Source of the DNA: Flavobacteriales bacterium
Lineage (GTDB): Bacteria > Bacteroidota > Bacteroidia > Flavobacteriales_D > Crocinitomicaceae
Length of the DNA: 64,000 nt
Assembly (NCBI GenBank): GCA_013373595.1
Contig: JABXHO010000044.1
Span: 1 to 64,000, forward strand
Direction of reading: 5' to 3'
The notes below the pieces were generated by a model. It ran no database searches. It had not been told where the DNA came from and was given only the letters and a program-made list of their open reading frames with translations. Shown in pieces: positions 55,565 to 60,327 of this stretch. Position numbers and translations under genes: made by a program. The stretch's first letter is position 1; each line of letters opens with the position of its first letter.

Positions 55565-57016
55565 TTACTCTTTGTGTATACTTCGGAGTATAGCGTTTGC
55601 TCGCATAACTTGTACGTGCGTTTCTTTTACTTCTTTCTTCGACATTCCTTCGAGTCTACCTGAATAACCGTTAAACAAGTGACTAATTTTCAATGGAGAG
55701 TTCTTTCCTGCGTAATTGGCATTATGGCAAGAAAAACAGTTGGCAAGATCCGACACCGTTGTTGAATAGATGTTTGATTTACCAAAACCAAATTGAACAT
55801 ATGTTTCCATTGTAATGTTGTAGGCGGCAACAGATCCACGTGTAAGATCGCCTGGAGATGAACTGCTCAATTGATAGCTGAGCGAATCAAGCAATGCAGC
55901 TTGCGCTTCTACCCCCTCATAATCTTCCGTATTGATCCAAATTGAACCGTTTAAGAAGTAATTTCTCCAAACGTCTGACAATTGATCTTTCACGCTTGCG
56001 TTCAAGTCTTGAATGTTTTGCAGGTTTTCCAGGGCATTAGTCTGACTTGTTGCCATGTACTCTTTTTGGCCAGCAGCGTTAATTTCAACAGGAACACCAT
56101 GGTCATATACGTTGAAAACATTCGTATTTATTCCAGCTCCGCTTGTTATGTTTTCAGTTGTTGCCTTAGCATTGGCAGTAAACAATGGGTAGCCAGTACT
56201 GCTTGTAACATTCGCATCGGAAGTATGTGTCGCCTCTGACCAATCATACATTGGGGCAAGTTCATCGTGTTCAAAAGTCGCCCAAATAAACTCTGGATGA
56301 TTTTCTACAATCCCAACTACGTGAATTCCCAACAGTGCCACCCGTGCAGATTTTCCATTAATTTCTCCATCAGTAATGTAGTAGGTGGATGAATCGGCAC
56401 CAAGCGCTGAAGCATTCAACCAAGATGTTTTCATTTCAAGCGCACCAACGGGGAACGTAACCCCTTCCAATTTATCTGAGTCTGCAGGGTTGTTAACCAT
56501 AGGGGCATAGGTTTTTAGTGTGTTCAACAACACATCATTCGCTAGAATAGAATAATAAACAGTGTTCTTGTAAGTGGCAGCATCTGTGTTTGATTTCAAA
56601 ATGTCACTTATACCACTCGCCTGACCAGTATCTGTTAGAATAACCGTACTTCCTTTTCCAAGTGTGTCCCCAATAGAACTTACTTGTGTCATGTTTTCGA
56701 GGAAGAAAGGTGTTCCGTTTACGTCGTTTGTAAGCCAGAGAAATTTTTGCCACGACCAACGTTGAAAGTCGCAGTTGGTTACGGTTGCATTGTTAGCAAA
56801 CACACTTGTTGCCCCCTCATTTGGAGCTGGTGTTTTCCGAATGCCATTATTGTCTTCAGTAAACCAAGATGCCGGAGCTGTTGAGCAGTCCGCAACAGGT
56901 TGGTCATTTTCTGTGACAGCAACGAGTATGTTGTCCGTTGTGAGTTCAGTGTTTTCGCATGAAGCAAAAAGTAGGGTCGCTGAAAGCGCGACGAGAATGT
57001 GGTTATGTACCTTCAT
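55565..57016 (-). CDS. Lipoprotein with C-terminal single c-type haem motif
   Basis: This 483-residue protein has lipobox FASC (Cys20) and a C-terminal haem-binding motif CFSCH (Cys427, Cys430, His431) in NCFSCHNANYAG. Residues 40-410 match no family I recognise; they include WSWQKFLWLTNDVNGTPFFLEN and FIWATFEHDELAPMYDW, with many aromatic residues. Such proteins with a lone haem near the C-terminus are often periplasmic electron carriers or enzymes (for example cytochrome-linked oxidases). No oxidase or reductase genes are adjacent. A terminator follows. It would be matured by the c-type cytochrome assembly system, which is not in this window. Confidence 0.8.
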   Translation of the reverse strand: MKVHNHILVALSATLLFASCENTELTTDNILVAVTENDQPVADCSTAPASWFTEDNNGIRKTPAPNEGATSVFANNATVTNCDFQRWSWQKFLWLTNDVNGTPFFLENMTQVSSIGDTLGKGSTVILTDTGQASGISDILKSNTDAATYKNTVYYSILANDVLLNTLKTYAPMVNNPADSDKLEGVTFPVGALEMKTSWLNASALGADSSTYYITDGEINGKSARVALLGIHVVGIVENHPEFIWATFEHDELAPMYDWSEATHTSDANVTSSTGYPLFTANAKATTENITSGAGINTNVFNVYDHGVPVEINAAGQKEYMATSQTNALENLQNIQDLNASVKDQLSDVWRNYFLNGSIWINTEDYEGVEAQAALLDSLSYQLSSSSPGDLTRGSVAAYNITMETYVQFGFGKSNIYSTTVSDLANCFSCHNANYAGKNSPLKISHLFNGYSGRLEGMSKKEVKETHVQVMRANAILRSIHKE

Positions 57017-57229
57017 AGCTGTTAGTTTTTAGCGAGTCTTGTGGTAGAAGACATCGTAATAGTTAGCCTTACAAATATCAGGAACACATCTTGAATAAAA
57101 GCGCGTAGAAATACCCGAATCGAATATTACCTAAGGAAGGTTGTTTAACGTAGAAAGCGTCAAAATTGTGAGAATTAAAGCTCATTGTCAGCTTGAAAAT
57201 ATATATTTACGTAGCAAACCATACTCACT

Positions 57230-59065
57230 ATGAAACTAATTGACGTCCTAGATCAAACTAATACAATTGAAAAATCTTCTTTCTATAAAATACTAAACAA
57301 TCTCATTGAGGAAGGTGAAACTGATGAGATAGAAGAGATTCTAAATAAAAATCGACATGTTAAAGAAATTGATCACTTTAACATCAACAAAGTGTTTATG
57401 CATCTCAGGAAAGAGTTTAAAAAGCATATTCAGTTTGAACTGGCAAGTAATTTATCTCAATTAGACATCTTGATTGATATTCTTATTAGGGATGGAAATG
57501 TCATCATGAAGGACCGATGGTTCCATGATTTGTATAAGAAGGAGATTGAAGCGTTAAGTGAAGCAAGTGAAATATTTACTGGATTAATCAACACCGAGTC
57601 AAAGGAACTAGAAAGTCATAGGAGGAGAGATTACGTCATCTACCGTGCATGTGTAGAAACGGCTTACACAAACGATGAAGCCAATAATCAAGACAAGAAA
57701 GTGACTTCTGACGAGTATTCGCTGCTTCAAACGTTGTCAGATGAACTAGAGCTTTCAAATGAAGAAATTCGATTGATCAACTTTAGTATAGTTCCGATAG
57801 AGCCTTTGGATCAGGATGTTTTGATTAAAAACCTCAAAGATTTAGGGATAATTTTCTACCACAAGAAGGACTATTGTGTGTATGTGCCTGATGAAATCGT
57901 AAAGATTCTCAGAGAGATAAGGGGTAAAAGTATTGCCGATAAATACCTGAGAAGAGTTTTGAAGGTTTTGAAGGGGCCAGAACTAAATTTGGTGTGTAAA
58001 AGACACAACATCAATCAAAGAAGTGGTCTCGAAGAGAAGGTGAAAACAATCATCAATCAAGGGATTTCCCTGAAAAGTCTTTTGAAACAAGGTATTCACA
58101 AGGAGGATACAAAACTGAATGATCGTAAAAAGACCGTTAATCGAATAATGGAAGACCTTGGTATAGAATCAAGGGGATCAACAATAGAAGATAAAATTGA
58201 GCTAATTGTTCAACATTTTAATATAGTTGAGAAGGATGAGACGATAGGCATTTCTATGGATGGTTATGAGTTGCTTTGTAAAGACTTAAACGAAGTTTTA
58301 CCACATATCAACAATTATTTGAGAGACGAGTTTCATTTTCAAGAAAAGGAAGTTTTAAAAGCGCAATTTCTTGCAGACCACAATATCAAACCACGTGATA
58401 TTTTGGATTTGATTGTAGAGGCAGATCTTCGGTCCTTTTGCGACTCGAAAGGCGTTTCGTTTAGGGGAGATGAGGTACAGAATATCTTAAACTCGTACAC
58501 CGACACTGAGAGCATCTACATTGAAAACTTCGTAAACATTGGAAATCGCGATTTAAATGCGTTAAAGACGAACAATATTAATATCACATCTGCTGAGATC
58601 GGATTGAAGTACGAAGAGGTAACGAGAATCTTATTTCGAGAGTTAGGTTTCAATGTGAATGAAGAGCTAAAGGCGGAGGTAAATAGCAGTAAGGATAAAA
58701 TTGATATCCTCATTGAAACGGGAGAAAAAGAAGTGATAATTGTTGAGTGTAAAACGGCAAAATCTACGAAGTATAATAAGTTTTCGGCGTGTTCAAGACA
58801 GATTAAATCGTATCAAAAGCATCTTGAAAAGAATGGATATCGAGTAATCAAAACACTGCTTGTTGCTCCCGACTTCACGCCTGATTTTATTGAGGATTGT
58901 GATCTAGATATTGAGTTGAACTTGTCACTTATCACGAGTGAAACGCTCTACAATATCTGGAACGGATTTAAGCATGCTCCACAACAAGTATTTCCAACGA
59001 ACTTGTTGATGCGCGATGCATTGATTAGCGATCAGAAAATTTTAAAGGCGTTAAAAATCAAGTAA
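57230..59065 (+). CDS. TerB-like / SAP-like / PD-(D/E)XK nuclease protein (lone)
   Basis: This 611-residue protein has no signal peptide and no obvious homologue that I can name. The N-terminal half is helical. Residues about 130-185 resemble the TerB-like helical domain, with acidic turns (DEANNQDKKVTSDEYSLL). Three segments have SAP-like spacing: about 250-278 (LVCKRHNINQRSGLEEKVKTI), about 306-330 (IMEDLGIESRGSTIEDKIELI) and about 398-423 (LRSFCDSKGVSFRGDEVQNI). The C-terminal domain shows the PD-(D/E)XK pattern: Glu462/463, Asp492 in DKIDILIE, Glu506-Cys-Lys508 in VECKTAK, and Gln524 in SRQIKSYQ. Arginine is mostly AGA/AGG, unlike its neighbours, which suggests transfer. It stands alone on the plus strand between two minus-strand genes. 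A defence or DNA-processing role is inference. Confidence 0.7.
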   Translation: MKLIDVLDQTNTIEKSSFYKILNNLIEEGETDEIEEILNKNRHVKEIDHFNINKVFMHLRKEFKKHIQFELASNLSQLDILIDILIRDGNVIMKDRWFHDLYKKEIEALSEASEIFTGLINTESKELESHRRRDYVIYRACVETAYTNDEANNQDKKVTSDEYSLLQTLSDELELSNEEIRLINFSIVPIEPLDQDVLIKNLKDLGIIFYHKKDYCVYVPDEIVKILREIRGKSIADKYLRRVLKVLKGPELNLVCKRHNINQRSGLEEKVKTIINQGISLKSLLKQGIHKEDTKLNDRKKTVNRIMEDLGIESRGSTIEDKIELIVQHFNIVEKDETIGISMDGYELLCKDLNEVLPHINNYLRDEFHFQEKEVLKAQFLADHNIKPRDILDLIVEADLRSFCDSKGVSFRGDEVQNILNSYTDTESIYIENFVNIGNRDLNALKTNNINITSAEIGLKYEEVTRILFRELGFNVNEELKAEVNSSKDKIDILIETGEKEVIIVECKTAKSTKYNKFSACSRQIKSYQKHLEKNGYRVIKTLLVAPDFTPDFIEDCDLDIELNLSLITSETLYNIWNGFKHAPQQVFPTNLLMRDALISDQKILKALKIK

Positions 59066-59070
59066 ATAAA

Positions 59071-59102
59071 AAAGCCCAGACCTCTATGGAGACCTGAGCT
59101 TT
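59071..59102 (-). terminator. Weak terminator of the acyl-CoA dehydrogenase
   Basis: An imperfect hairpin (AAAGC...GCTTT with inner CAG/CTG and CCTC/GGAG pairing) is followed on the minus strand by TTTTTT. It lies 20 bases past the minus-strand stop and could also slow plus-strand transcription from the nuclease gene. Confidence 0.45.
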
Positions 59103-59121
59103 CAATATAGTATTCTACTGC

Positions 59122-60327
59122 TTACATTTTCGACAAATCTGGAGCCTCACGTGTAAATGCAGGAATTCCAGTTACGTCCATTCCTGTAATCAACAAGTGG
59201 ATATCGTGTGTTCCTTCATACGTTACAACCGATTCGAGGTTAGCCATGTGTCGCATGATTGAGTACTCATCTGTAATACCCATTCCTCCGTGAATTTGAC
59301 GTGCTTCGCGTGCAATGTCCAACGCAATTTCAACGTTGTTTCGCTTCGCCATGGAAATTTGAGCTGATGTCGCTTTTCCTTCGTTTCGAAGTTGTCCCAA
59401 ACGGAAAGTCAACAATTGAGCTTTCGTGATTTCGGTGATCATCTCCGCCAATTTCTTTTGTACCAATTGGAAAGAACCGATTGGAACACCAAATTGTGTA
59501 CGTTCTTTTGAGTAGCGAACAGCTTGATCGTAACAATCCATCGCTGCACCTAATGCTCCCCATGCAATTCCAAATCGAGCAGAATCCAAACAACCAAGTG
59601 GTGCTCCTAATCCTGATTTATTCGGAAGAATATTTGCTTTTGGAACACGTACGTTGTCGAAAATCAACTCTCCAGTTGCAGAGGCACGAAGTGATAATTT
59701 TCCATGCATTTCAGGTGTAGAAAAACCTTCCATTCCTCGCTCAACGATCAATCCATGGATGCGTCCTTCTTCATTCTTTGCCCAAACAACAGCGATATCT
59801 GCGAATGGAGCATTTGAAATCCACATTTTCGCACCGTTCAAAATAACATGGTCACCATCATCTTTGAAATTGGTAATCATTCCTCCTGGGTTCGATCCAT
59901 GATCAGGCTCTGTTAATCCAAAACATCCGATCATTTCTCCTGTTCCCAATTTTGGAAGGTACTTCATGCGTTGCTCCTCATTTCCGTATTTCCAGATCGG
60001 GTACATAACCAAAGAACTTTGCACAGAAGCTGTAGATCGTAAACCTGAGTCACAACGCTCCAACTCTTGCATAATCAATCCGTAGGAAATCTGATCCAAT
60101 CCAGGTCCTCCATATTGTTCTGGGATGTACGGACCAAAAGCACCGATTTCACCCAAACCAGGTAAAATATGACTTGGGAAGGTTGCTTTTTCATAGTGCT
60201 CGTCGATAATCGGCGACACTTCTTTCTTCACCCAGGCGCGCGCAGCGTCTCTTACAAGTTTGTGTTCTTCTGAAAGAAGATCATCCATATTGTAATAATC
60301 GGGATGTGTATATAAGTCAGTTCTCAT
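59122..60327 (-). CDS. Acyl-CoA dehydrogenase, glutaryl-CoA dehydrogenase type
   Basis: This 401-residue FAD enzyme has the glutaryl-CoA dehydrogenase signature. The catalytic base is Glu371 in VTYEGTHDIH, and Arg97 in RSTASVQSSLVM matches the Arg that binds the glutaryl carboxylate and guides decarboxylation. Also present are FGLTEPDHGSNPGGM (the flavin/substrate loop), MWISNAPFAD and the ARQIHGGMGITDEY motif. Glutaryl-CoA dehydrogenase oxidises and decarboxylates glutaryl-CoA to crotonyl-CoA in lysine and tryptophan degradation. Electrons pass to an electron-transfer flavoprotein. No other pathway genes are adjacent. The start is the ATG at 60325-60327, with a -7 box 23 bases upstream. Confidence 0.88.
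   Translation of the reverse strand: MRTDLYTHPDYYNMDDLLSEEHKLVRDAARAWVKKEVSPIIDEHYEKATFPSHILPGLGEIGAFGPYIPEQYGGPGLDQISYGLIMQELERCDSGLRSTASVQSSLVMYPIWKYGNEEQRMKYLPKLGTGEMIGCFGLTEPDHGSNPGGMITNFKDDGDHVILNGAKMWISNAPFADIAVVWAKNEEGRIHGLIVERGMEGFSTPEMHGKLSLRASATGELIFDNVRVPKANILPNKSGLGAPLGCLDSARFGIAWGALGAAMDCYDQAVRYSKERTQFGVPIGSFQLVQKKLAEMITEITKAQLLTFRLGQLRNEGKATSAQISMAKRNNVEIALDIAREARQIHGGMGITDEYSIMRHMANLESVVTYEGTHDIHLLITGMDVTGIPAFTREAPDLSKM

Follow-up and report, generated by a model that had tools for sequence, protein, structure and literature searches.

The window, by which we mean the whole 64,000-nucleotide stretch of DNA that we analysed, encodes a 611-residue protein that belongs to an uncharacterized, unnamed and widely transferred family. 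We consider it to be a horizontally spread single-gene anti-phage nuclease, at a rough probability of 0.58. The family has an invariant active site and a FokI-like predicted fold, its window copy lies in an insertion, its transfer has been patchy, and some of its copies are prophage-borne. From its mobility, its carriage as phage cargo and the type of protein, and not from neighbourhood statistics, we infer a role in defence, with a trigger that would be a feature of invading DNA. Elsewhere in the family an ion channel may act as an optional partner, a putative coupling suggested by gene order. Taken together, transfer, prophage carriage and channel pairing in ~12 loci suggest that this lone nuclease family is an undescribed system and a candidate for phage defence.

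An unassigned family of full-length homologues

The ORF, which we judged to be a real gene, is flanked by genes for a cytochrome-c-like lipoprotein and an acyl-CoA dehydrogenase, both on the other strand (Table 1). This arrangement, including its coordinates, reproduces that described in an earlier interpretation made from the letters of the DNA alone (hereafter the sequence-only reading). The protein matches phrog_34709, whose function is unassigned, from end to end. No family scored above threshold for it in Pfam, NCBIfam, PADLOC or the PDB; sequence searches against the PDB gave nothing significant, and the only PADLOC-DB 2.0.0 profile to match was PDC-S01 (E 0.02, over 38 nuclease residues). 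Nearly all homologues are full-length, and those in our 81-row alignment (A3) range from 611 to 618 residues.

Table 1. Features of the nuclease gene, its product and its surroundings (window positions unless a locus is named)
Feature	Position	Strand	Basis or remark
Cytochrome-c-like lipoprotein gene (one flank)	55565-57016	-	Pfam Cytochrom_C, only E 0.05
Inserted segment, ~1.94 kb	57127..59065		Absent from the sister genome's syntenic site; edge alignment
Nuclease gene	57230..59065	+	611 aa, ATG start; phrog_34709 member
Winged-helix-like fold with helical insert, residues 62-234	57413..57931	+	Weak structural matches, Z 5-6.5
Conserved Asn/Asp/Glu loop, residues 148-162	57671..57715	+	Alignment; no TerB profile match
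Helix-loop-helix, possible SAP-like module, residues 249-277	57974..58060	+	Model and alignment only
SAP-like module, residues 392-424	58403..58501	+	Aligned to the Pfam-significant SAP of a divergent homologue
FokI/N.BspD6I-like PD-(D/E)XK nuclease domain, residues 424-607	58499..59050	+	Structure prediction, structural matches
Active site: E462 (58613-58615), D492 (58703-58705), E506-x-K508 (58745-58753), Q524 (58799-58801)	58613..58801	+	Invariant, 81/81
Terminator-like hairpin of the acyl-CoA dehydrogenase gene	59066..59110		By eye; at the empty site too
Acyl-CoA dehydrogenase gene (other flank)	59122-60327	-	
Voltage-gated-type cation channel gene	L067:9225-9998		Equivalents also in L178 and L155

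A FokI-like nuclease domain with an invariant active site

The residues E462, D492, E506, K508 and Q524 are conserved without exception in the 81 homologues, and K511 and R523 are likewise invariant. The PD-(D/E)XK pattern recognized by the sequence-only reading is therefore borne out, and the loss of D492, E506 or K508, which that reading had named as evidence against itself, was seen in none of the 81. E463, which had been counted in the same pattern, varies (mostly E or D) and has to be removed from it.

The AlphaFold2 model of the window protein has a mean pLDDT of 89. In this predicted structure, residues 424-611 align best with N.BspD6I (Z 14.4; 176 residues at 3.3 Å), with FokI almost level (Z 14.3), and the next different enzyme in the ranking is HindIII, well below both (Z 10.3). 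Weak matches to Mrr_cat were found in 48 of the 81 homologues. By both its active site and its modelled fold, the C-terminal domain is a member of the FokI/BspD6I-like branch of the PD-(D/E)XK superfamily; a structural check had been proposed for residues 440-611, and it returned a nuclease of this precise type and no non-nuclease family. The enzymes of the family presumably cut DNA and may dimerize to do so. Shedu (SduA), also a single-gene PD-(D/E)XK defence nuclease, scores lower in the structural comparison (Z 7.4-7.7); its N-terminal part is different, PADLOC gave no Shedu match and a FokI-like domain fits far better.

FokI and N.BspD6I, a type IIS restriction enzyme and a nicking enzyme, have the same cleavage-domain fold (Z 14) and, like the window protein, a DNA-binding part in front of it, whereas the active site here reads D-E-x-K. 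As FokI represents the nearest solved fold, the protein could be taken for an orphan type IIS restriction enzyme, with a methyltransferase encoded elsewhere or lost. However, the first 447 residues gave no match to the FokI recognition domain: a separate model of them (pLDDT 90, pTM 0.87) found no significant structural match, with nothing under E 0.3 and no FokI. The insert moreover consists of one gene, with no methyltransferase partner and none recurring among the neighbours of the family, and we regard the orphan type IIS enzyme as the least probable of all readings considered. A Foldseek match to full-length FokI (616 columns, TM 0.23) had made a FokI recognition domain a candidate for the N-terminal part; since the N-terminal model retrieves no FokI when searched by itself, this match is carried by the nuclease domain.

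The N-terminal part

Residues 62-234 gave low-scoring matches to several winged helices (Z 5-6.5), in a range that unrelated helical proteins can also reach; the modelled region weakly resembles a winged-helix fold carrying a helical insert. The TerB-like helical stretch proposed earlier was not detected there. Pfam TerB had no match in the window protein, in a divergent homologue of 511 residues (L176) or among the 25 best-represented families over the 81 homologues, and the call rested on the resemblance of the motif at residues 148-162. That motif is strongly conserved (N148, D149, N153, D161 and E162 form a cluster), and the alignment makes it a possible metal site.

In the window protein itself, the SAP signal is weak and under the Pfam cut-off, and weak profile matches to SAP_new25 and LEM occur in 4 and 2 of the 81 homologues, respectively. 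The divergent homologue, in contrast, harbours a SAP domain above the cut-off (E 2.2e-7), which hhalign places on residues ~392-420 of the window protein. This alignment supports one predicted SAP segment at that position, and the helix layout of the model, together with the alignment, makes a second one at residues 249-277 plausible. Of the architecture put forward by the sequence-only reading, which had three SAP-type segments, the nuclease and one SAP segment thus stand, a second SAP segment is plausible, and no support was found for the third or for TerB. The gene of the divergent homologue (L176:5273-6808, - strand) encodes a D-G...D-x-K nuclease motif and has a DUF3800-like gene close by on the other strand.

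A recent single-gene insertion

A sister genome (G028, L117) shares with the window the gene order RecJ, PLP-enzyme, Lrp, cytochrome-like, acyl-CoA dehydrogenase, DUF4271, HemD and Sir2, but has only ~155 nt at the position of the nuclease gene. The left edge of the insert directly follows CGAATCGAATA and its right edge comes straight after the nuclease stop codon, such that the inserted segment is little longer than the ORF and holds one gene, which reads into the terminator-like hairpin of the dehydrogenase gene. The tetranucleotide AATA is present at each edge, indicating either microhomology or a 4-bp target duplication; neither terminal inverted repeats nor a recombinase gene were seen at the inserted segment. 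The closest relative (G032, 83% identical) is found at another location, beside a lon gene.

Codon usage is also foreign. AGA and AGG make up 16 of the 28 arginine codons of the nuclease gene, compared with 17% in the other window genes, in keeping with the bias noted earlier. The GC content of the gene (0.356) is the lowest among the 38 window genes compared, and its adaptation to the codon usage of the window genes, which served as the only reference, is the second lowest, with a normal GC3. The empty sister site and the foreign codon use together support a recent acquisition of the window gene, as the sequence-only reading had suggested from the arginine codons.

In another genome of the genus (G022, L116:2626-3427), a different segment of ~0.8 kb occupies the same intergenic site, which may therefore be a small insertion hotspot.

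A rare and patchily distributed family

Homologues were found in 9 of 60 near genomes and in 2 of 395 genomes across the phylum, both counts including the genome of the window. They are present in 17 of 393 genomes in the order of a Salinivirgaceae genome and in 1 of 294 in the class of an Ignavibacteriales genome. Among 84,980 species genomes we counted 308 candidate loci, the best 80 of which provided the homologue set from that collection. Hosts are mainly Bacteroidota but also include Ignavibacteriota, Calditrichota, Chlorobiota, Lentisphaerota, Thermodesulfobacteriota and Pseudomonadota, with homologues also present on Pseudoalteromonas chromids. The phyla are interleaved in the homologue tree, in which isolated unexpected placements could stem from binning errors, as many of the sources are MAGs. 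The family is thus rare and patchy, and it moves between unrelated bacteria.

SAP modules and nucleases are also combined in repair enzymes such as FAN1. As the window protein has both in one chain, and as FAN1 appears among the weak structural rows for the model of residues 1-447, a housekeeping nuclease for DNA repair or recombination was considered. Such a role is very unlikely for a gene that is rare and patchy, sits at a different site in each genome, was recently inserted and is carried by phages.

Phage carriage and defence context

In all three IMG/VR viral contigs with a homologue, the gene is located beside phage structural genes, although a tblastn search of 50,697 phage records gave no match. 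At one locus (L025:9980-11842) the nuclease gene lies within a cluster of phage head genes but runs against them, with the head maturation protease on one side and the minor head, portal and terminase genes on the other. Cargo genes of phages are placed in this manner, on the opposite strand among structural genes.

Two Pseudoalteromonas chromids (L019 and L020) carry the nuclease gene with an HNH gene at the same variable site, between SAM methyltransferase and LysR genes, with differing companions; at one of them these are metallophosphoesterase and ORC-CDC6-like genes and a DEAD helicase. The site is apparently a defence-type hotspot. In a third chromid, SIR2 and HerA adjoin the nuclease gene. 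Reverse transcriptase, Abi_alpha and caspase genes were found as neighbours at single loci each.

The neighbours of the family are mostly varied housekeeping genes, and the conserved housekeeping context that might have argued against a defence role was not observed. We also compared PADLOC families near to and beyond 6 kb of the nuclease loci and found no clear enrichment, since both sets hold defence-like matches, many of the far ones being generic helicases. The enrichment beside known defence genes that had been suggested as a check is therefore not apparent, and it is the prophage-borne copies and the variable hotspot with its defence-type genes that uphold the earlier idea of a single-gene defence system.

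Possible mode of action

As an anti-phage nuclease, the protein would bind DNA through its winged-helix-like fold and SAP-like modules and recognize a feature of invading DNA, after which the FokI-type domain would cut nearby, probably once paired with a second nuclease copy. No DNA methyltransferase was seen travelling with the gene, so the host DNA would most likely be spared by the nature of the trigger, either base modification or a DNA intermediate that is branched or arises in replication. The window gene stands alone without a methyltransferase, and none recurs among the 25 commonest neighbour families, a listing that single methyltransferase neighbours could escape. A nuclease that acts alone would allow a test of how an enzyme of the FokI type leaves its host unharmed when no methyltransferase is present.

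A stand-alone gene without a methyltransferase is also a feature of type IV restriction enzymes. Winged helices fused to nuclease domains are known as 6mA-dependent type IV enzymes (PMC11037411), which resemble the window protein in being stand-alone, in a possible combination of winged helix and nuclease and in lacking a methyltransferase neighbour, but which differ from it by another nuclease domain and the absence of the extra SAP-like modules. The protein could then be a type IV enzyme in the strict sense, in which the winged-helix-like or the SAP part would recognize a base modification in foreign DNA and the FokI-type domain would cleave some way off; the weak Mrr_cat matches would agree with this. 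Profiles find no modification-reader domain, however, and the winged-helix call is weak, which leaves this reading tentative, though the most credible of the alternatives to the reading preferred here.

Recurrent pairing with an ion channel

Our survey of the family brought to notice the repeated pairing of the nuclease with a voltage-gated-type channel. When the neighbours were clustered, one adjacent family recurred: a single-domain channel of 257-268 residues (one ORF call gives 286) that matches Ion_trans (E 4.5e-26). Read by eye, its S4 charges are regular and a T-[VI]-[ED]-G-W motif stands at the expected position of the selectivity filter. After removal of duplicates, its gene abuts the nuclease gene in ~12 of ~95 distinct loci (among them L033, L056, L066, L067 with its near-copy L073, L069, L080, L083, L088 of Geofilum rhodophaeum, and L091). 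In four loci the two reading frames overlap by 23-35 nt, the channel gene ending within the start of the nuclease gene; a 2-nt gap between an upstream channel gene and the nuclease gene is also met, and the channel gene lies downstream in four others (L033, L066, L080 and L091). With nine rows scored, channel adjacency requires 5-6 changes on the tree and occupies several positions in it. Adjacency in two orders and at this frequency seems hard to explain by chance.

Where the channel gene adjoins, the nuclease might be switched by the channel, which would open upon a membrane change in the course of infection and activate the nuclease by letting ions in or by touching it; or else the channel might be a second, killing effector. 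The frequency and tree distribution of the pairs and the conserved Asn/Asp/Glu loop are consistent with this reading, but we find it doubtful, as the coupling is deduced from gene order and most copies, including that of the window, have no adjacent channel gene; the genome of the window encodes one distant Ion_trans protein only. A bolder version, to which we give slightly less credence, would assign the whole family to an immune module gated electrically or by ions, of which it would supply the nuclease half. In this module a bacterial voltage-gated-type cation channel, its E-G-W filter being Cav-like, would sense how the membrane changes when a phage infects; the FokI-type nuclease of the overlapping gene would then be activated by the inflowing ions or by direct action of the channel, and solo copies would use another trigger. 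If nuclease and channel do act together, bacterial immunity would have membrane voltage or ion entry among its triggers.

In the literature searched, with subscription journals mostly outside it, we found no report of nuclease-channel pairs and no described defence system with a FokI-like or SAP nuclease. The nuclease-protease pairs of Hachiman, AVAST and canu (PMC12799240) likewise show a nuclease repeatedly associated with a linked partner gene. Here, by contrast, the partner is an ion channel and not a protease, nothing points to a proenzyme, and the text of that report mentions no ion channel, FokI or SAP.

Three of the ~12 pairs appear damaged or incomplete. In one genome (G042) the nuclease starts at the channel end and its gene is interrupted by other sequence, and at locus L058 the pair is cut by a contig edge. 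In another genome (G908, L178:8327-9110, - strand) the channel gene is apparently split by a frameshift, while the adjacent nuclease gene stays open.
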